From: a virus
Length of the DNA stretch: 35,668 bases
Direction: 5' to 3' (one strand)
Virus record (IMG/VR): IMGVR_UViG_3300042894_003880
Location: 1 to 35,668 of that record
Below are positions 8,760 to 34,794 of the stretch, in pieces. Positions within the stretch are counted from its first letter, which is position 1, and the number at the start of each line of letters is the position of its first letter. The position numbers were made by a program, and so were the translations under genes. A model generated the notes under the pieces. It did not search any database. It was not told where the DNA came from and saw only the letters and a program-made list of their open reading frames with translations.

Positions 8760-10247
8760 TTATACAGTAGCAATAACTCTTAAATTTTTAATAGATGGAA
8801 CTTTTGCTGAATCCTCTGAATACATTACAATTTTAACTTGCAATCTATTAAATGATGTATATTGAACTCCATTTATTCCCGCATAAGATATATTTAAATT
8901 TTCATAAAGTTCTTCAATATAATCTGATGCCAATAATGCTGGGGTTGCGCTTGATTTTTTGGGTAATCTATACCATATTGTTTCGTTTATTTCTAAATCA
9001 GTATCATATCTATTTAATACTCTACAAAATACTTCAATATCTGTTCCAACCGGTTTGTTAACGTCGACGTATAAAGTTATACCATCAGCATCAAAATCTT
9101 CATTTAATGTTACAGATTTTGATACATATTTAGCATAAGCAGCCCCAGTTAATGCAGCCAATTCTGAATCAGATACTTCTGTGCTATATGCGTTAATAAA
9201 ATTTTTAATTAATTTAACGCCAGTTCCATTTATATCTATAATAGGAGTTAAATTTTTATCTGTGTTTGTTAACGTTAATGTAAATGGCAAACCTTTGGTT
9301 TCGTGTAACTTAGAATGCGATGGCATATTTATATTACTATTTAATAACATAGGAATTTGCGTTAAAATGTCAGTATAATAATCAAAAGAACCGACTTCGC
9401 ATTTGCTTATATATGATATTTCACTAAATTCTTTTATTGATGTTGCTAATGTTACAGTATCAAAATCATATGTTGGTCGATCGCCGAGGTTTAAATATAC
9501 AACTGCCTCGCCAACGTCAAAAACAGCTTGATGTAACATAAAACATAAATCTTTAGTTGGATCAATAACCCATGATACCCCTTGATTGGAATAAATAAAA
9601 TCTCCTAAATATGGATTAACTACAACTTTACCTGAATTTAAACCTGCTTTACCATTTTCAGAAATAAAAACTGAAAAATTAAACGAATTAGTTTTTAATG
9701 TAAAGCAGTAATATCCGGCAGAAAGATATAGCGGAAATTCAAATTCAAAATCCATTGTAGAATACTGAACGTTTGCATCAACTGCTGGATCCCACTCATA
9801 TGTTTGTGGATCCCCTGATTGCGTAACTACTACTTTTGACAATGGAATTACATCTCCAGGAACCCCATTTACTAATGGTCTAACATCAAGAGTTATTGAT
9901 TCGTCTGTAGAATCTTGTCGAACAAATATTGTAATTTTAGATAAAAACATCCCTTTTGGATATGTTTTTGCATCAATTAAAAATGTTTGTCCAATATAAT
10001 CATTATAAGTCGGTGCATAAGTTAACGAACGATCGTGATCAATTGAATACGTCGCTTCAAATTCAGAATCAAATACGCTTAATTCCCATTTAGAATTTAC
10101 TATTTGATTAACCCAATAACTAATTTCCTCTGGAAAATATTTTATATCTGCATTTTTATCAGGGTATTTTCTTTCTTTTATGTAAGGCGATGTTACGAAT
10201 TTATTCGTAACATACGCGTGTATTAAACCTTTATCTAATGTTGCCAT
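8760..10247 (-). CDS. Tail/baseplate structural protein of the DUF4815-associated type
   Basis: 495-residue structural protein. Seen: ITIFVRQDSTDESITLDVRP followed by a VNGVPG turn, a YLSAGYYCFTLKTNS strand pair, NPYLGDFIYS, then near the C-terminus FDADGITLYVDVNKPVGTDI with VFCRVLNRYDTD and a final SIKNLRVIATV. In marine T4-like phages these segments are, from my memory of the family, commonly found in the C-terminal part of DUF4815-type tail proteins. Here they form a separate gene directly after the large DUF4815-type gene. AGAAGG lies just upstream of the ATG at 10247. A likely role is tail periphery or fibre attachment; the exact role is unknown. There is no T4 gene I can equate it with. 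Confidence 0.8.
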   Translation of the reverse strand: MATLDKGLIHAYVTNKFVTSPYIKERKYPDKNADIKYFPEEISYWVNQIVNSKWELSVFDSEFEATYSIDHDRSLTYAPTYNDYIGQTFLIDAKTYPKGMFLSKITIFVRQDSTDESITLDVRPLVNGVPGDVIPLSKVVVTQSGDPQTYEWDPAVDANVQYSTMDFEFEFPLYLSAGYYCFTLKTNSFNFSVFISENGKAGLNSGKVVVNPYLGDFIYSNQGVSWVIDPTKDLCFMLHQAVFDVGEAVVYLNLGDRPTYDFDTVTLATSIKEFSEISYISKCEVGSFDYYTDILTQIPMLLNSNINMPSHSKLHETKGLPFTLTLTNTDKNLTPIIDINGTGVKLIKNFINAYSTEVSDSELAALTGAAYAKYVSKSVTLNEDFDADGITLYVDVNKPVGTDIEVFCRVLNRYDTDLEINETIWYRLPKKSSATPALLASDYIEELYENLNISYAGINGVQYTSFNRLQVKIVMYSEDSAKVPSIKNLRVIATV

Positions 10248-10268: not shown

Positions 10269-13200
10269 TCAATTTGAAGAATTATCCCAGTTTTCGTACG
10301 CTTCTTCTTCGCTGGCATAACCAAAAGCAGTAAACCAACCAACTGCAGCAGCAGGCGCTGGTGGTGATACTGTATTTATAACTGGACCTATTTCTTTAAA
10401 ATCTGGAGATATAACTCCCCATCCTGGGCTTTGATCAGCGGATAATTGCCCTACCGCTGTAAGAGTTGTGGTTCTTTCTACAATTGTTACGGGAGAAACA
10501 GTAGTCGCTGCATATACAGTGTTCATTGCTGCTTTTGCAGCAGCTGCTTCTTTATTAGCATTTTCTACAGCTAAAAGAGCTGCCGCATCTGCTGCTTGTT
10601 TCTCTACTAATGCAGCAGCTACTTTGGCAGCTTCACCGTTTGCGTTTGCAGGAACTATGTCATATTTTGTATCGACAGTTTTTGCTTTTGAAACAATAAC
10701 TTTCCCGTTTGAATCAACAGTTTCTGTAATTGTCGATGTAGTAGTAACTTGAGTTACATTAATCGCATCAGCTTTTAATTTAACTCCGGATATTAATAAC
10801 GTTACTTCCCCATTAACATAATTAGAAACGCCTGGAAGTTCAAGATCCTCGTCATCAGTTTTAGTTTTTATTGCTGCGGTCGTATTAATGTTGAATACTC
10901 CAGGAATTGTCTCCATTCCGTCGTAATCCTCAGTATCAACGTATTTCTGTGCATTAGAAACCGAAGCAGTTATGTCTCCTTTTACCGATGCGGCGGCTCT
11001 TGGCTTAACATACATAGGATCATCTTTTGGTAATAAAGCTGTAGAAACAACGCTTACGGAAACATCAGAAATATCTGTATATACGTCTGGAGTTAAAGCT
11101 AATTTCGCAGTGCCTGTAGCATCCCTCCATTTTCCTCCATCCTGATATTCGCCGCCCTTCCATTTACCCGCATTGCTTGAAGCCATTGTTACTAAGATAT
11201 CACCGTTATCAAGATACGTAATATTATTAATATTCGTACTTCCTATTTCAAGGTCTAACCCAACTTTTGGAATTGTTCTATCCGCAACATATTCAACAGT
11301 AGTTACTGTATTGGTTCTAGTAGTAACTGGTTCTTTTGCAAAAAGCGGCGTCGGCGTCGGCGTAGGCGTAGGAGTAGGCGTTGGCGTCGGCGTAGGCGTA
11401 GGAGTAGGCGTTGGCCATGGCGTAGCTGCAGGTGGCAAAGATGGCGTTGGTGTTGGTGTTGGCCATGGTGTTGGTGTTGGCCATGGTGTTGGTGTTGGCC
11501 ATGGTGTTGCTGGAGGATAATATGGTACCGGTTCTGGTGGATAATAAATTAACCCATTTGTTAATTCAAACGAACACGAATTAGCACTTCTTGGTCCAAT
11601 ACCTCCAGTATAATCAAAAATTGCATAATATTTAGATGTAGTATATCCAGGAAGACTTGCTCCTGTCATTTTAAGAATATTGTTACCCCAATTCCAATTT
11701 TGATCTGTTAAAGTTATGCTAGTGTGATCGGTAGGATATATCGTTCCACCTTTTGTTGTATCTGATGAAGACATCGTAACCGTGACGTTTCCATCAACTG
11801 GTGGAGTTTTTAATTGAATTAAAAACGGAACATCAGCTCTATGATTGTTATATTGAGTTCTATCTCCATAACAAGTAATAGCAACAGCTGGCCAAATTAC
11901 GTTTATAGTATTTCCTGAATCTTTATTTTTCATTGGAACTACAGTTGTCAAATTATTCCAATCAGTATTCGCGCTAGATGAAGTTAATGTAACATTATAA
12001 TCTACTATAGTTTCGTGATGTAAATTTGCATTAGTTACACCTTTTACAATAACAGTTTTCATTACATTCCAAGTACCTTTGGTAAATGTAATTGTGTTTG
12101 ATGAAACTGCCGTTAACCCATCTTCGGAAACTTGGTAAATTATTCCTCCACCAACTATATCATCTGAGGCTGCAGTTATAATAACATCAGATTCTGGTCG
12201 TTTACTTATTGATACATCAATAACTTGTGTAGTTCCAAGAGAAGTTGTAATTCTTGGAGCATTTAAAATAAGCCCATCCGTTGATGATAATTGCGCATTT
12301 TGATGAACACGAATTTCTGGATCAGGAGCTAATAATTCTGCGCCAACAGTAATAGGCACTGTTTCTGTAATTGCATCCCAATTTGAATTAGGAGATTGGG
12401 TTGTAACCGTAACAGTAGTGCTTCCTACATTTAAACCAACAAGCCAATATGTAAATTTCAATATTTGATGATCTGGTTTTAACACAGTTAACACGTTACC
12501 AGAAACTACATTAGAAAATTCATAATCGGTATATTCTGAATTTGTTATTTGCGCAACTGAAGTATTTGCAACAGTTGCAGTAAATTTTAATGGATATGTA
12601 GTTATTGAATCAGTCCACCATCCAATATCATTTCCTCCTCCATATGTTACTGTAAAAAATGATTGTCCAGCAACATTTGATACTGATACAGGCGAGACTG
12701 ATATATATGATGATTTTTCAGCGGCAGGACCTACATTTGGATCAAATTTTTTGTATGGAACTAAATGGGTTGATGTAACTCCTTTTATAGGAAACGGTCT
12801 TAACCAAGATCTTAATGGAACTGCTGATCCACCATAATCGTATTGCGGATCAGCAGATGTAGAATAAAATTCAATATAAGATGGTAAATTATTATCGATA
12901 AATGTATCGATTTCATCTCCGCCAACTTGACGTCTATTTCCTAAATTATATGTTAATATTACATTTTGAGGAGTGGACCAAGTATTTTCTGTAAATGTTA
13001 ATGTAGAATGATTTGTAGTAATTGAACAATTTGACGACATGTCTTCTGACGCGTTTACAAGAACAGCAACGGTAACAGTTGTATTTGGTTGTTTGTTTAA
13101 AAATACAGGAACTGTAATGTTGCCAGATTTTATTGAATCATAATCTACGCTATAATCAAATACCTTATAATCGGCGCTTAAAGGTGCAATTATTCCTGCA

Positions 13201-23865: not shown

Positions 23866-24852
23866 TTAGTTTAAGTTTATTGGTGAACCTTTAATATTAG
23901 TTGCTCCACTACTTGTTTGGTTTATAGTTCCAGCAACAGTTGTTGTCATATTTCCATTAATCGTCATAGTATAATTCCCATCAATAGTTGTATCACAATT
24001 ACCAATAATATAAACTTTATTACTTCCTTCAATTGTAACTGAGCAATCTCCAGAAATAGATACTTTATCATTATTTAATACAACAGTATATCTATCTTTA
24101 ACAATTTTCTCGACCTGTGAACCATCTGGATGCGTCTCAGAGAACGTTCCGCTTCTATGATACAAATGTATCCGTTCATGCCCAGGAGAGTCGTCAAGCT
24201 CGAAATAATGTCCTGATTCAGTGCTTACAACTTGATTGTATGGATACTTTGTATTATAAGGAGAATTAGGTTCAGTCCAAGCAGTTGCACCTTTTGGTCC
24301 TTTAGCTTTTTTAACAGAATCATTTTTTGCTTTAACAATAGTTGTATCTATACTTTCATTCCTTGATAGTCTACTTGTAGTAGGTTGGTCAAGTCTATTT
24401 GGATAAGTATTTGCTGCTGGGCGCTCAGTAATTTTTGCGCCACCTTTAGTTGAATAATCAATTGTCTGCGGTTTTCTCGGAGCAGCTTTTAATTGTTCGT
24501 CAGTTCTTGGGTCATTAAAACCTTTTTCTCTGTCAGGGCTATCTTCTGGTATTCCATGAAACATACCCATAATTATTGGATATTGGCTTGATGCGCCATC
24601 CATAAAAAAACCCATTACAAAATCCCCTTCTTGTAGCGTAGAAGGAGTAGACGTTGACCCATTAATAGAAAATAATGGTTGCGCCCAAGGTAATGTATTT
24701 GTTGGAACTTGCGCTTTTGTTCCTTCGTGTAATCCTTGTATTCTTACTCTACACCGACCAAGATTTAATGGATCCATTCTATCTTCGATAACGCCGATCC
24801 ACCAAACGAATCCATTATGGCCTATGAAATTTCCTCTTCTATTATTACTCAT
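23866..24852 (-). CDS. 5: Baseplate hub spike protein gp5, without lysozyme domain
   Basis: Central spike that punctures the cell envelope. The N-terminal OB-fold is at about residues 15-110 (WWIGVIEDRMDPLNLGRCRV, then WAQPLF and EGDFVMGFFMDG). After a charged linker, a stretch with SGHYFELDDSPGHERIHLYH precedes a C-terminal repeat of about eight-residue units (SISGDCSVTIEGSNKV and on to the end), which predicts the triple beta-helix needle. It is 328 residues against 575 in T4. The T4 lysozyme domain between the OB-fold and the needle is missing, and no catalytic Glu motif is visible. It sits in the hub order with the gp27-like gene upstream. The lysozyme function appears to be in the 1032-residue protein at 31696. 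Confidence 0.92.
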   Translation of the reverse strand: MSNNRRGNFIGHNGFVWWIGVIEDRMDPLNLGRCRVRIQGLHEGTKAQVPTNTLPWAQPLFSINGSTSTPSTLQEGDFVMGFFMDGASSQYPIIMGMFHGIPEDSPDREKGFNDPRTDEQLKAAPRKPQTIDYSTKGGAKITERPAANTYPNRLDQPTTSRLSRNESIDTTIVKAKNDSVKKAKGPKGATAWTEPNSPYNTKYPYNQVVSTESGHYFELDDSPGHERIHLYHRSGTFSETHPDGSQVEKIVKDRYTVVLNNDKVSISGDCSVTIEGSNKVYIIGNCDTTIDGNYTMTINGNMTTTVAGTINQTSSGATNIKGSPINLN

Positions 24853-29889: not shown

Positions 29890-30759
29890 ATGTCATTTTT
29901 CGATACACTATCAGATACAGCCGGAAGTATTAAAAGCGGTTTTAATACTTTAATGAATGGGTCGGGTCCAGAAACAAAAAATAATATGGCAGAAGGAATA
30001 GCTGAATTAAGAAAATATGATGTTGGTAGAACTGCATATTTTAAAGTTGAAATATTTTCACAAATACCCCCCGATCAATCTTCTGGAAATTTTACTATAT
30101 CGGGAGGCAGTTCATCAGAAAAAAGTTTATCATTTTTATGTCATTCTGCAGAATTACCTGGAGAATCTACTGCAACAGTAACACAGAAAATATATGGAGT
30201 TACTGAAAAATTTTCAGTTATGACTGGATATAACGATATTACATTAGCATTCTATACAAGAGGATCTGGAGTAGAAATTACTAGAAAATTTTTTCAAAAA
30301 TGGATTTCTTTTATAACAGGAAGAGCAGAAACTATAAATTATAGAGGTAAAAAAGTACAAGAAACAACATATAATGTACAATACAAAGCAGATTATGTTG
30401 GGACAGTAAAAATTACACATTTTGCTATTACTGGAGATCCATTGGTAGAAGTAACATTATATGATGCATTTCCCGTATCAATAAATCAAGTACCATTATC
30501 TTGGTCAGCTCAAAATGAAGCCCAATCATTAAATGTTACATTTGCATACACAGAATATTCATACAATTTCTTATCAGTAGAAGGAACTGGGAACTATTCA
30601 CGAGGTCCATTAGGAGAATTATTAGGAACAGCAATTCAAACTGCTGCAACAATAAATAGCATAAAAGGAGCTTTCAAAAGCGGAAATCCTGTAGCTGCGA
30701 CATCGACATTGCCTAATCTTGGGTTGTCGAACTTTACAATATCATCTGGATTAAGATAA
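29890..30759 (+). CDS. 54: Baseplate tail tube initiator, gp54-like
   Basis: Probable starter ring for tail tube polymerisation on gp48. It is 289 residues (T4 gp54 is 320; tube protein gp19 is 163). The tube fold is visible: YFKVEIFSQI, a hydrophobic FLCHSAELPG strand, DITLAFYTRGSG, a KFFQKWISFITG helix, and the C-terminal DAFPVSINQVPLSW with QSLNVTFAYTEYSY, as in gp19/gp54 proteins. The C-terminal extension beyond the tube domain (about 40 residues, Ala/Gly-rich) and the length favour gp54 over gp19. AGAGG lies before the ATG. In T4, genes 48 and 54 are adjacent on one strand; here they are on opposite strands. Confidence 0.75.
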   Translation: MSFFDTLSDTAGSIKSGFNTLMNGSGPETKNNMAEGIAELRKYDVGRTAYFKVEIFSQIPPDQSSGNFTISGGSSSEKSLSFLCHSAELPGESTATVTQKIYGVTEKFSVMTGYNDITLAFYTRGSGVEITRKFFQKWISFITGRAETINYRGKKVQETTYNVQYKADYVGTVKITHFAITGDPLVEVTLYDAFPVSINQVPLSWSAQNEAQSLNVTFAYTEYSYNFLSVEGTGNYSRGPLGELLGTAIQTAATINSIKGAFKSGNPVAATSTLPNLGLSNFTISSGLR

Positions 30760-30775
30760 AATAGGATTATAAAAT

Positions 30776-31501
30776 ATGAGTTTGTTACCAAAAATTGATA
30801 TGCCAACATATACAGTTAAATTACCAATATCAGAATTAACTGTAAAATATAGACCTTACAACGTAAAAGAACAAAAGATTCTAGCCATGGCTAAAGAATC
30901 AGGAGATAATAATTCATTAGTTGATGCGATAATTCAAATAGCACAAAATTGTTGTGTTGATTCAACAGAAGTTGCTGATTTACCATTAAATGATGTTGAA
31001 TTTTTATTTTATCAATTACGAGCAAGATCTGAATCTGAAATCCTTGAATTAAAATATAGATGCGAAAATATAACAGAAGAAGATAAAAAATGTAATAATA
31101 TTATGGAACACGAATTAAATCTTTTGACTGAATTGGAAATAATTAAACCAGATATTTCTCCTATTATTGAAGTAACAGATAAAGTTGGATTAAAATTACG
31201 TTATCAAAGATTTGAAAAAGATGCTATTGGTGATGCATTACCTACTCCGCAGCAAATTCTTGAAATAATTGCTAAAAACGTTGAGTTTATTTATGACGAT
31301 AATTCAGCTTATAGCGCAAAAGATGTTCCATTACAAAATATTGTTGATTGGATTGGAGAATTACCTCCAGAAAAATATGTAAAAATAGAAGAATTTTTTG
31401 CAAATGAACCAAAAATCGTTAAAAAATTAGGTATTAAATGTAATAAATGCGGATTCGATCATTCTATAGAAGTACGAGATATTTTTGATTTTTTTATTTA
31501 A
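30776..31501 (+). CDS. Baseplate hub assembly chaperone, gp26/gp51-type (short form)
   Basis: 241-residue T4_baseplate-family protein, corresponding to the T4 gp26/gp51 hub assembly proteins. Seen: YTVKLPISELTVKYRPYNVK at the N-terminus, a central VEFLFYQLRARSESE helix, a first Cys pair (YRCEN...KKCNN) and a second pair near the C-terminus (IKCNKCGFD) that together could bind zinc, ending DIFDFFI. AGGA lies nine bases before the ATG. The gene ends with a run of seven T residues (31489-31495) one sense codon before the TAA. A -1 shift there gives the longer form described at 30776-31695. It sits directly before the lysozyme/tape-measure-like gene. Confidence 0.85.
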   Translation: MSLLPKIDMPTYTVKLPISELTVKYRPYNVKEQKILAMAKESGDNNSLVDAIIQIAQNCCVDSTEVADLPLNDVEFLFYQLRARSESEILELKYRCENITEEDKKCNNIMEHELNLLTELEIIKPDISPIIEVTDKVGLKLRYQRFEKDAIGDALPTPQQILEIIAKNVEFIYDDNSAYSAKDVPLQNIVDWIGELPPEKYVKIEEFFANEPKIVKKLGIKCNKCGFDHSIEVRDIFDFFI

Positions 31502-31695
31502 TTCTTGGTAATGTTGATCTTACAACTTTTTATAAAACAAATTTTAACATGATGCAACATCATGGATACAGATTACATGAGTTGGAAGAGATGATCCCTT
31601 GGGAAAGGGAAGTTTATGTAGGTTTATTGGTGCAGTATCTAAAAGACAAAGAAGAAAGACGAAAACAACAAGAAGCTAAAAGGAATATGCAATAG
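30776..31695 (+). CDS. Predicted -1 frameshift fusion: hub/tail assembly chaperone, long form
   Basis: Predicted 306-residue product: residues 1-240 of the gp26/gp51-type protein joined to 66 residues read in the -1 frame from 31495. The extension includes GNVDLTTFYKTNFNMMQHHG, then YRLHELEEMIPWEREVYVGL and a charged helix KDKEERRKQQ. It stops with TAG at 31693-31695, directly before the ATG of the next gene. The -1 frame is closed just upstream (TGA at 31486), so the open stretch begins exactly at the slip site. The MIPWERE(V/I)Y pattern is one I associate with C-terminal parts of tail-chaperone proteins. The same arrangement, G then GT then tape measure, is known from lambda. Separate translation from ATG 31549 is possible but has no ribosome site. 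Confidence 0.72.
31489..31495 (+). promoter_or_regulatory. Candidate -1 ribosomal slip site T-TTT-TTT
   Basis: Seven T residues placed in the X-XXY-YYZ register of the chaperone frame (codons TTT 31490-31492 and TTT 31493-31495), followed by ATT and TAA. Slippage of both tRNA-Phe by one base restores Phe-Phe pairing exactly. No strong downstream hairpin is evident; only a four-base stem GTTG/CAAC at 31513-31526 is seen. Transcript slippage on the T-run is another possible mechanism. Confidence 0.7.
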
Positions 31696-34600
31696 ATGGC
31701 AACTAATAATTCAGATACATCATTTTTAGATAATGCAAAAGAATATGCAAGTAATGCATATAATCAAACAAAAGATGAATTTTCTCGCGTAAGTCAAAAT
31801 AGCAAAGATAGAAATTGGATTGTTGAAAGAGAAAGTAAATTAAATAATTTAACTTTAAGTCAAAAAGAACAATTAAAATACATATCCAGCGCTGATGATG
31901 CAATGAAATTTGTTGAAGCAGCAACTGCTGGCGATAGACAAGGTGCAGAAAAATTATATAACCAAGCATTAAAAGGTCAAGGAGGAGCAATAGCATCTTT
32001 TGCAGGAGATGTTGCTACTACTGCACTTGGAGGAGCAGCAGGTAAAGCTGCATTTAAAGCTGCTCCAAAATTGTTTAAGGGTGCTGCTGAAGTAATTGGC
32101 GAAAATATTCCTTCATTAAAAAAAGTAAGTAATGTATTTAAAAGTGCTGCAGATAAAGCAGACGAAGCATTATCTGCAGAGCGGGCAGCAAGAGCAGCTG
32201 CCCGAGAACAACGCGCACAGGAATCTATTCAAAGAGCGCAAGCAGAACAGCAGCAAGCAAGAACTGCAACAAATTCCACTCCTACAGAAACTCCATTTAG
32301 AAGTAACACAACAAGAGCGACGGAAACTGTTCAAGAAACAATAACTCCGCCGCCAGAACAAAGTATTTTTGGTAAAGTTGCAGATTGGACTAAAAATAAA
32401 ATTGTTCAGGGCGCAGATTGGGCTGGCGGAAAGGTTGTCGAGGGAGCAAAATCTGTTGGTAGTGGAATTGCAAGTTTAGGTAAAACTACATTAAAAGGAG
32501 CAGGATTAGGTGCTGCTATTGGAATACCAGCAGGCGAATATTATGAAAATTTATCTGACGAAGAAAAAACCAAATGGCAAGAAAAAGCTCAAAAGGGAGT
32601 AGATTGGGTTGATAACGCAATTGATCATCCAGGAGAAGCATGGGAAGATATAAAAAAAGGAGCAGGTAATTTATTAGGAGATGTAGCAGGTGGAGCATTA
32701 GGGGCAGCTGTTGGAAAAGGGTCAAATCCATTTAGGGGAATTAGCGCAGGGACGGGATCATTATTTGCCGGCGGAGGTTCAGTTGGTTCAACATTTAATT
32801 CAATGCCCTCTGGCGGGGATTCTGGTAGAATCGGTGAAAGTCATTTCGGTGGCGGAGACGTTCAAGGAAAATCTGCAATTGAAGTATTAAATAAAATTTA
32901 TAATGTATTAGCAAAAACAAATGATACTATTAATTCAATATCTAGAGATGTTTCTTCGTTAACGCGATCACAATCACAACAAAATGCTACAAATGATTTA
33001 AATTCTGCAAATATGCAAGCTCGTCAGAATGAAATGGGATCTGCAACCCCCATTTATGGCGGAGGCGGGGGAGGTTTAGGCGGAGAAGAAGGAGGAATGG
33101 GTGAAGCAGATAAAGGTTTCTGGTCAAAACTATTGGGTAAAATTAACCCTAAAGCTGCAGGCGCAGCTGCTGTTTCTGCGCTAAATCCAGCAAAAAAAGT
33201 TGGCTTACTCTCAAAAATAGGAAAAGGAATTTTAGGTGGCGCTAAAGCTGTAGGAAGTGCAGCAAAAACTGTAGCCCCTACAGCAGCAAGAGTTGGCGGA
33301 GCAGTTGTCGGAGCTGAATTATTAAATGGGGGAGGAGACGATAAAGCAGCATATGCAAAAAACTTCTTTGTGAATAAGGGATATACAGAAGAACAAGCTG
33401 CAGGAATTGTTGGAAACTTACAAGGAGAATCAGGAAATTTTAACAAAGATGTAATATCAGGAGAAAGACGCGGAGATGGAGGCAAAGCAGTAGGGATAGC
33501 TCAATGGCACCCAGATCGCCAAGCTAAATTTAAAGAAATAATGCATAAAGATTTAGTTGGAGCTTCTCTCGAAGATCAGTTAGAATTTGTAGATTGGGAA
33601 TTAAATAATTCACATAAAAGTGCAGGAAACGACCTTCGAAAACAAACTACTGCTGAAGGAGCTGCTAAATCTGTTGAAAGAAAATACGAAATAACTGCAG
33701 CAAGTATGCATGGAGGGCATTCTCCAGAAAGAGTAAGAAATGCCGAAAAACTTATGGGTAAAAGTTTACCTGATAAAAAAGAAACTTCTTCAGCAAAACC
33801 TGTAATAAAAGGAGTAGAACTTACTGGTGATAGAAAAAGAAATCCATATTTTATAGCTCCAGGAGAAGAAGAAAAATCCAGCCCATATGACGTTTCTGCA
33901 GAAGATGTAAATGAAAATACAAATAAAGCCCCTGAACAAGAAAGGTTGCCATATGTATTATCAGATAAAGGGGATGGAAAATTTGCTAAAATTGATATAT
34001 GGACCCGCAAAAAAACTACAGCAACTCCAGAAGAAATAAAAAAATATCAAGAACAAACTGATAGAGATAATGGAAAAACTGCTGCTCCTGCTACACCATA
34101 CAGCGATGTTCCTGATTCAGAAAAACTTGATGCGCCAAAATTTCATTTATATAAAGATTCAATAGGTACAATGCAAAAACAGGATTTAGAAACTGGAGAA
34201 GAATTTTTAGCAACTGATGATGACATAAAACAAGATAAGGAACAAAAAGAACGCGAATCGCAATGGGTAGAAAAACATAAAATTAGTCCGTCAGAGCAAT
34301 TACAAATAGATGTCGATAAAACAGCTGAAGCTTATGTAGCTGCAAATCCTACAGCATCATTTGTTGAGAAACCTACTGCAACACCTCTTTCAAAAAAAGA
34401 ACAAGATATGTTAAAAGAAGTTGATGATATAGATGCTGAACGTAGCAAATTACAAAGCGAATATGATGCTGAACCGAGATATAAAGATTATGGTGATGAT
34501 AAAGAATCAATGGAAAAAGATTTACATCGATTAGACGAAAATTATGCTAAAAGTAAAGAATTGGATGAAAGAAGAAATAATATAGCAGGAACACAGGAAT

Positions 34601-34794
34601 ATCATGACGCAGTTATGAAACAACAAGGAAAAGCTCCTCAACAAGCCCAACAACAGCAAGCTCAACAAACTCCTCCTCCACCTGCTCCAGCAGGAACAGG
34701 AAAATCTGTTCCTGGGGTAAGAAACGATGATCCAACTATAAAAATGATGGAAGAAGGGAGTATGTGGAGTACGCAAGGTGGATTAATGGCATAA
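31696..34794 (+). CDS. Hub/tape-measure-like protein with phage tail lysozyme domain
   Basis: 1032-residue protein. About residues 95-150 and 250-350 hold Ala/Gly-rich helical segments (TTALGGAAGKAAFKAAPKLF, GAGLGAAIGIPAGEY). About 160-200 is a charged helix (RAARAAAREQRAQE). About 450-480 is a Gly-rich linker. Residues about 553-690 match the phage tail lysozyme family (PF18013-like): KNFFVNKGYTEEQAAGIVGN, then LQGESGNF with the probable catalytic Glu at 578, and AVGIAQWHPDRQAKF. The rest is hydrophilic, with a Gln/Pro-rich end. It directly follows the chaperone genes, the position of the tape measure in other tailed phages. So it may set tail length, form hub material (T4 gp29 role) and supply the cell-wall hydrolase missing from gp5. 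AAAAGGA precedes the ATG. Confidence 0.82.
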   Translation: MATNNSDTSFLDNAKEYASNAYNQTKDEFSRVSQNSKDRNWIVERESKLNNLTLSQKEQLKYISSADDAMKFVEAATAGDRQGAEKLYNQALKGQGGAIASFAGDVATTALGGAAGKAAFKAAPKLFKGAAEVIGENIPSLKKVSNVFKSAADKADEALSAERAARAAAREQRAQESIQRAQAEQQQARTATNSTPTETPFRSNTTRATETVQETITPPPEQSIFGKVADWTKNKIVQGADWAGGKVVEGAKSVGSGIASLGKTTLKGAGLGAAIGIPAGEYYENLSDEEKTKWQEKAQKGVDWVDNAIDHPGEAWEDIKKGAGNLLGDVAGGALGAAVGKGSNPFRGISAGTGSLFAGGGSVGSTFNSMPSGGDSGRIGESHFGGGDVQGKSAIEVLNKIYNVLAKTNDTINSISRDVSSLTRSQSQQNATNDLNSANMQARQNEMGSATPIYGGGGGGLGGEEGGMGEADKGFWSKLLGKINPKAAGAAAVSALNPAKKVGLLSKIGKGILGGAKAVGSAAKTVAPTAARVGGAVVGAELLNGGGDDKAAYAKNFFVNKGYTEEQAAGIVGNLQGESGNFNKDVISGERRGDGGKAVGIAQWHPDRQAKFKEIMHKDLVGASLEDQLEFVDWELNNSHKSAGNDLRKQTTAEGAAKSVERKYEITAASMHGGHSPERVRNAEKLMGKSLPDKKETSSAKPVIKGVELTGDRKRNPYFIAPGEEEKSSPYDVSAEDVNENTNKAPEQERLPYVLSDKGDGKFAKIDIWTRKKTTATPEEIKKYQEQTDRDNGKTAAPATPYSDVPDSEKLDAPKFHLYKDSIGTMQKQDLETGEEFLATDDDIKQDKEQKERESQWVEKHKISPSEQLQIDVDKTAEAYVAANPTASFVEKPTATPLSKKEQDMLKEVDDIDAERSKLQSEYDAEPRYKDYGDDKESMEKDLHRLDENYAKSKELDERRNNIAGTQEYHDAVMKQQGKAPQQAQQQQAQQTPPPPAPAGTGKSVPGVRNDDPTIKMMEEGSMWSTQGGLMA

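Follow-up and report, generated by a model that had tools for sequence, protein, structure and literature searches.

A predicted −1 ribosomal frameshift joins gp26-type and gp51-type domains of a tail assembly chaperone in an uncultured T4-like virus

In phage lambda, where genes G, T and H follow one another in the sequence record, a −1 slip on the heptamer GGGAAAG, close to the 3′ end of the gene that precedes the tape measure gene, gives rise to the short gpG and the long gpGT. For T4-like phages, the abstract of a study of their tail assembly chaperones (TACs) reportedly states that frameshifting is conserved in several groups and that T4 uses genes 26 and 51. That study, in which Vladimirov, Gautam and Davidson (Virology 2022) identified the TACs of T4-like phages, is cited in two papers on whose available text we rely: the PRFect paper (PMC10885494) cites it for T4-like phages that have a short gene alongside a longer, fused one, and the Adele paper (PMC12846349) credits it with poly-T −1 frameshift signals in T4-like TAC-N genes. 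The original prediction, which took this device to be undescribed for T4-like phages, was therefore mistaken on novelty; as far as the available text of these papers goes, frameshifted chaperones in T4-like phages are already in print, and the locus presented here is a sound new example. In Pakpunavirus Adele and the Vandenendeviridae, the available text of PMC12846349 describes a −1 frameshift at a T-rich site ending TAC-N, as at our locus, with an extension of more than 200 bp that either carries a hypothetical-gene annotation or is treated as intergenic; these phages differ from ours in their GTTTTT motif and belong to another phage family. The T4-like TAC-N and TAC-NC (gp26 and gp51), as presented in those same texts, are of the same family and form the same short/long pair as the products predicted here, whereas our locus comes from an uncultured lineage and T4 itself has two genes and no frameshift.

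We analyzed a 35,668-nucleotide stretch of viral DNA (IMG/VR record IMGVR_UViG_3300042894_003880, positions 1 to 35,668, hereafter “the window”), in which all features of the locus lie on the plus strand. An ORF at 30776–31501 encodes a 241-aa protein and ends, in the 0 frame, with GAT TTT TTT ATT TAA, the TAA being at 31499–31501. The heptamer T TTT TTT at 31489–31495 fits the X XXY YYZ slip register, as predicted; it had been placed two codons before the stop, but a single sense codon (ATT) lies in between. Direct reading of the sequence also bears out the predicted boundaries of the second frame: a TGA at 31486–31488 closes the −1 frame directly 5′ of the slip site, 66 codons are then open (31495–31692), and the TAG at 31693–31695 adjoins the ATG, at 31696, of a 1032-aa tape-measure-like gene (31696–34794). 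The predicted long product, made of the first 240 codons and the extension (31495–31695 with its stop codon), would be about 306 aa. Upstream lies a tail-tube-like gene (29890–30759; phrog_45, 6.7e-25; PF23849, 1.4e-6).

Profile searches support the assignment, made in the original prediction, of both parts to a T4 gp26/gp51-type protein. The 0-frame ORF encodes a gp26-family protein, as judged from its matches to PF12322 T4_baseplate (3.6e-47; 161.3 bits against a curated cut-off of 24.5) and phrog_150 (3.4e-48). By the same kind of evidence the extension is a gp51-type C-terminal domain (TAC-C): its matches are phrog_634 (3.5e-26), the gp51 family labeled “baseplate hub assembly catalyst”, and the C-terminal end of phrog_150 (positions 231–281, 1.2e-5), and the profile comparison with the T4 gp51 C-terminus that had been proposed as a check gave a match when run (aa 200–243; hhalign E 1.5e-5, prob 79.6). 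The predicted chaperone gene pair lies directly 5′ of the tape-measure-like gene, whose match to phrog_9570 (1.5e-29) makes its predicted role as the tape-measure gene plausible. This gene also carries a tail lysozyme domain (PF18013 Phage_lysozyme2, 1.7e-26), and a separate protein of a hub/tail-lysozyme family (phrog_430, 3e-90) is encoded on the other strand at 23866–24852.

T4 displays the same two parts in a single reading frame. While T4 gp26 consists of the PF12322 domain alone, T4 gp51 is one continuous protein comprising PF12322 (aa 1–201, 3.9e-52) followed by the extension (phrog_634, 1.2e-23), and on these matches T4 makes the same short/long pair from two genes, which in the T4 group lie on opposite strands. 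SdyM_006, Kc304 and Aeromonas 31 likewise have a gp51 ORF of 248–257 aa with PF12322 and an adjacent, shorter PF12322 gene on the opposite strand, and RB43 has a PF12322 ORF of 247 aa.

Based on this anatomy and on the comparisons below, we consider it very probable that a programmed −1 frameshift yields a TAC-N and TAC-NC tail assembly chaperone pair. Most ribosomes would read the ORF at 30776–31501 and stop at the TAA at 31499, producing the gp26-type TAC-N of 241 aa. A minority, with TTT codons (31490–31495) paired in both the P and the A site, would slip back by one base and then read the 66 codons of the −1 frame, producing a TAC-NC of about 306 aa whose C-terminal domain would be what annotators call gp51. 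That the slip occurs, that its rate would favor the short product, and that the products act as chaperones are what we infer from these comparisons. If they work as lambda gpG and gpGT do, the short form would coat the tape measure protein, and the long form would connect the resulting complex to the tube subunits.

The slip site is conserved among relatives of the window. A query with gp26 only, which selects loci independently of the extension, retrieved 27 IMG/VR viral contigs (16 distinct 120-nt junctions), all 27 of which carry an in-register heptamer (T TTT TTC or T TTT TTT) together with a −1 extension, two of these being cut by the contig end. We assembled a larger set of 112 loci, counting the window, from the gp26 search, an extension search (best 80 of 234 relatives) and three named cyanophage/pelagiphage regions; T TTT TTN is present in 65/65 of its distinct junctions, with the extension-search loci limited to those best 80. 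A third scan used the extension profile with DNA patterns that lacked the Phe-Phe start, and again the heptamer was found in 80/80 loci (44 ending in C, 28 in T, 7 in A and 1 in G), the 0-frame stop lying 0–24 nt past it; these loci are the best 80 of 598 relatives, and at least 7 of them exactly duplicate an earlier junction. Clustered at 80% identity, the extensions form 25 clusters in the first set and 68 overall. Across the 25 clusters Phe-Phe is preceded by different residues (Ser in 13, Asp in 10, Asn in 2), always with a codon that ends in T, while only 2/93 background X-Phe-Phe sites, taken from other positions in the long ORFs of these loci, are written as T TTT TTN. Under a weaker null that considers codon usage alone, the probability is about 0.62 per cluster, and 25/25 would still be unlikely (<1e-5, calculated by hand from the counts). 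In the proposed conservation check in relatives, the heptamer and the −1 frame are conserved, and in the window clade the GAT and first TTT codons are fixed in 16/16 and the second TTT in 15/16, but the synonymous identity of that clade across the final six gp26 codons, although high, is not exceptional (36/237 windows are as high), and we dropped synonymous constraint as an independent proof of frameshifting.

The same arrangement is found in named phages. By tblastn, 793 phage records matched the extension and 1,079 matched gp26; window gp26 is below 60% identity to all of the latter, and the best named matches of the locus are Kyanoviridae-type relatives. We picked 20 named-phage gp26 junctions by hand for diversity; in 16 of them T TTT TTN is present and the −1 frame stays open past it: Vibrio XZ1 and VS2, Cronobacter S13, Moby, ACP17, ORM_20, Melnitz-3, Aeh1, phiN3, Cr30, HTVC008M, S-SKS1, P-SSM2, S-WAM1, Mosig and AG-345-L05, which include Schizotequatrovirus and cyanophages. 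The other four (SKML-39, phiEa2809, SeSz-1 and Vibrio VPALA) have (A/G)ATTTTC or ACTTTTC before the stop, a shorter slip tract, found in Ackermannviridae and in VPALA, and their −1 frame is open. The −1 frame runs for 143–197 nt at the 20 junctions; the +1 frame was rejected as a source of the extension, as it ends no more than 82 nt past the gp26 stop at all of them. When the −1 peptides of ten of these twenty phages were compared with PHROGs, nine matched phrog_634, with values from 1.2e-21 to 0.024, the weakest match, that of Moby, being marginal (0.024), and for Vibrio VPALA no PHROGs family was matched. The three Ackermannviridae peptides, those of SKML-39, phiEa2809 and SeSz-1, match phrog_634 weakly (1.1e-5 to 2.8e-3), beside their own family phrog_9633 (function unknown).

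These observations bear on how gp51 has been annotated. In the available text of a review of the T4 tail (PMC3004832), gp26 and gp51 are hub assembly chaperones, gp51 being needed yet absent from the particle. Sullivan et al. 2010 (PMC3037559), in the text available, report that cyanophage gp51 has only about 20% of its usual length, that in cyanophages and marine vibriophages the ~200 N-terminal residues of gp51 are absent, and that Aeh1 has no gp51; the available text of the Shigella AG3 paper (PMC3121705) contains nothing on a gp26/gp51-type gene. We found that gp51 is present in Aeh1, unannotated, as a −1 extension of the gp26 gene (phrog_634, 9.3e-15). Frameshifting would supply the ~200 residues missing from gp51 (PMC3037559) from gp26, and would account both for the short cyanophage gp51 and for the “missing” gp51 of Aeh1, correcting a common annotation problem. 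It would also provide a clear case of one short/long pair that some lineages make by frameshifting and T4 makes from two genes.

A distinct origin of the extension product was weighed in the form of a separate small gene (gp51), translated from its own start or by reinitiation after the gp26 stop. Many GenBank records do annotate separate gp51 ORFs (57 aa in P-SSM2, 44 aa in Mosig), but the annotated starts differ among records and S-WAM1 has none annotated. A potential start (ATG, GTG or TTG) precedes extension residue 20 in the −1 frame of 12/25 clusters and is lacking in the other 13. The window's extension has its first standard start codon at ATG 31549, for which no ribosome site was found in the preceding sequence TTTATAAAACAAATTTTAAC, and the conserved extension residues F1, F2, L11 and F19 are all encoded upstream of it; the −1 frame also has an ATT at 31501 as a candidate start, and T4 is reported to use a non-standard AUU start for its 26′ product. 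The continuity of the gp51 domain with a full gp26-type domain in T4 is a further argument against a free-standing gene, and given the clusters that lack start codons and the lack of a ribosome site at ATG 31549, we disfavor an independent gp51 start and regard it as very unlikely. The extension is under selection as protein: in 12 diverged pairs of the window clade (of the other three relatives, two were too similar and one too short), pS in the −1 frame is 0.31–0.66 and pN 0.03–0.22. The earlier impression that it reads like real protein is borne out by this excess of pS over pN together with the phrog_634 match.

Frame-shifted mRNAs could also arise by transcriptional rather than ribosomal slippage, given that RNA polymerase can slip on homopolymers and that the window run consists of seven T's. 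However, the best 80 of 598 relatives include 44 in which six T's are followed by C, 7 in which they are followed by A and 1 by G, and T6 is short for bacterial transcriptional slippage; what stays constant is the ribosomal heptamer register, and a Shine-Dalgarno-like element in many relatives and a hairpin in some lie near the site, so that slippage of the polymerase appears very improbable. As for an open frame due to chance, or one gene split by a sequencing or assembly error, the viral contig is AT-rich and T TTT TTN occurs in register at 7/11,345 codon positions of 21 window ORFs, leaving six such sites besides the slip site; only the slip site lies close to where its ORF ends (4 codons), and the remaining six are at least 116 codons away. 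This frame break is shared by 65 distinct junctions and by independently sequenced isolate genomes, and because the heptamer and the frame are conserved in relatives, chance and assembly error are refuted as origins of the slip site, with hardly any probability left to them. Ribosomal frameshifting into a short and a long tail assembly chaperone, the core claim of the original prediction, is well supported by comparison.

We then considered stimulatory elements at 38 sites, which include close relatives and are not fully independent. An 8-mer ending 7–8 nt 5′ of the heptamer pairs with the anti-Shine-Dalgarno string (mean −5.8 and −5.5 at the two distances), against values between +1.2 and −3.0 at distances of 11–59 nt. 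In aggregate, this Shine-Dalgarno-like element is stronger than 300/300 synonymous shuffles (mean −5.86 vs. −4.41); a conserved pair, [E/K/R/Q]-Gly, present in most sites, explains much of the signal, and the element is singly significant (p<0.05) at only 4/38 sites. Downstream, the hairpin z-score relative to synonymous controls is below −2 at 12/38 sites (mean z −1.39), the lowest values being those of P-SSM2 (−5.5), AG-345-L05 (−5.0) and ACP17 (−4.8). Stems of 11 bp are predicted about 5 nt past the heptamer in P-SSM2, AG-345-L05 and S-SKS1 (z −5.5, −5.0 and −4.4). In the window, folding against synonymous controls revealed no downstream hairpin (z +1.0), and its Shine-Dalgarno-like element does not stand out from synonymous shuffles (p 0.26). 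A hairpin as a general feature was rejected, only 12/38 sites being below −2 and the window having none. Since the window has neither a clear hairpin nor a clear Shine-Dalgarno-like element, the bare heptamer must suffice there or another stimulator exists. One tentative reading, which we hold to be possible but somewhat doubtful, is that the heptamer is near-constant across T4-like phages while stimulators are lineage-specific modules: a Shine-Dalgarno-like element ~7–8 nt 5′ in many cyanophage-type lineages, a strong stem-loop just 3′ in some, and in Ackermannviridae a reduced (A/G)ATTTTC site, with the window clearly showing neither of the first two. The short:long ratio would then have been retuned repeatedly, and in the T4 group two genes, 26 and 51 on opposite strands, would have taken its place altogether.

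The original prediction further proposed that the locus unifies the T4 hub chaperones with the G/GT system of lambda. Like gpG and gpGT, the window locus has a predicted short and long form, a predicted −1 slip and a position before the tape-measure-like gene; the slip heptamer is a different one, and neither domain is detectably similar in sequence. In the suggested profile check, run with single lambda sequences, gpG and gpT gave hhalign probabilities of 0.1–0.2 over 7–13 columns against the window domains, so that with these single sequences no homology to lambda G or T was detected. In a PDB sequence search the gp26 alignment had two chance-level matches, and the extension alignment had none. 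An AlphaFold2 model of the gp26-type protein, built from 22 sequences (pLDDT 87.4), had the HK97 tail assembly chaperone 2ob9 as its top two rows in a Foldseek search of the PDB, with weak E values (0.47 and 0.71, prob 0.72). With VIA-align, the matches were 3fgx (Z 8.0), 2ob9 (Z 7.1, rmsd 4.8 over 85 residues), 3klu (Z 6.5) and 5ir0 (Z 5.3), the next row being at Z 2.8; according to the tool's own note, a Z below 8 may be merely a common arrangement. All these matches fall inside residues 1–96: the HK97 chaperone and YqbN (3klu) show a moderate fold likeness to the N-terminal ~90 residues, as does the uncharacterized 3fgx, whereas the gp26-type protein has a further ~150 residues relative to the HK97 chaperone and YqbN. 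The modeled N-terminal domain may thus resemble the tail assembly chaperone fold, a suggestive likeness that stays below strong thresholds. The extension is helical in its model (pLDDT 86.9), and a fold search with this model in a viral library gave no match at E ≤ 0.001. With no sequence match to lambda, the proposed unification rests on mechanism, gene position and the modest fold match.

Elsewhere in the window, a 2344-residue protein encoded at 10269–17303 matches only families of unknown function, the best being phrog_358 (4.3e-182, with the best stretch at 582–1392 of 2056). The neighboring protein at 8760–10247 matches the C-terminal end of phrog_358 (1855–2054), and the two look like one large protein split in two.
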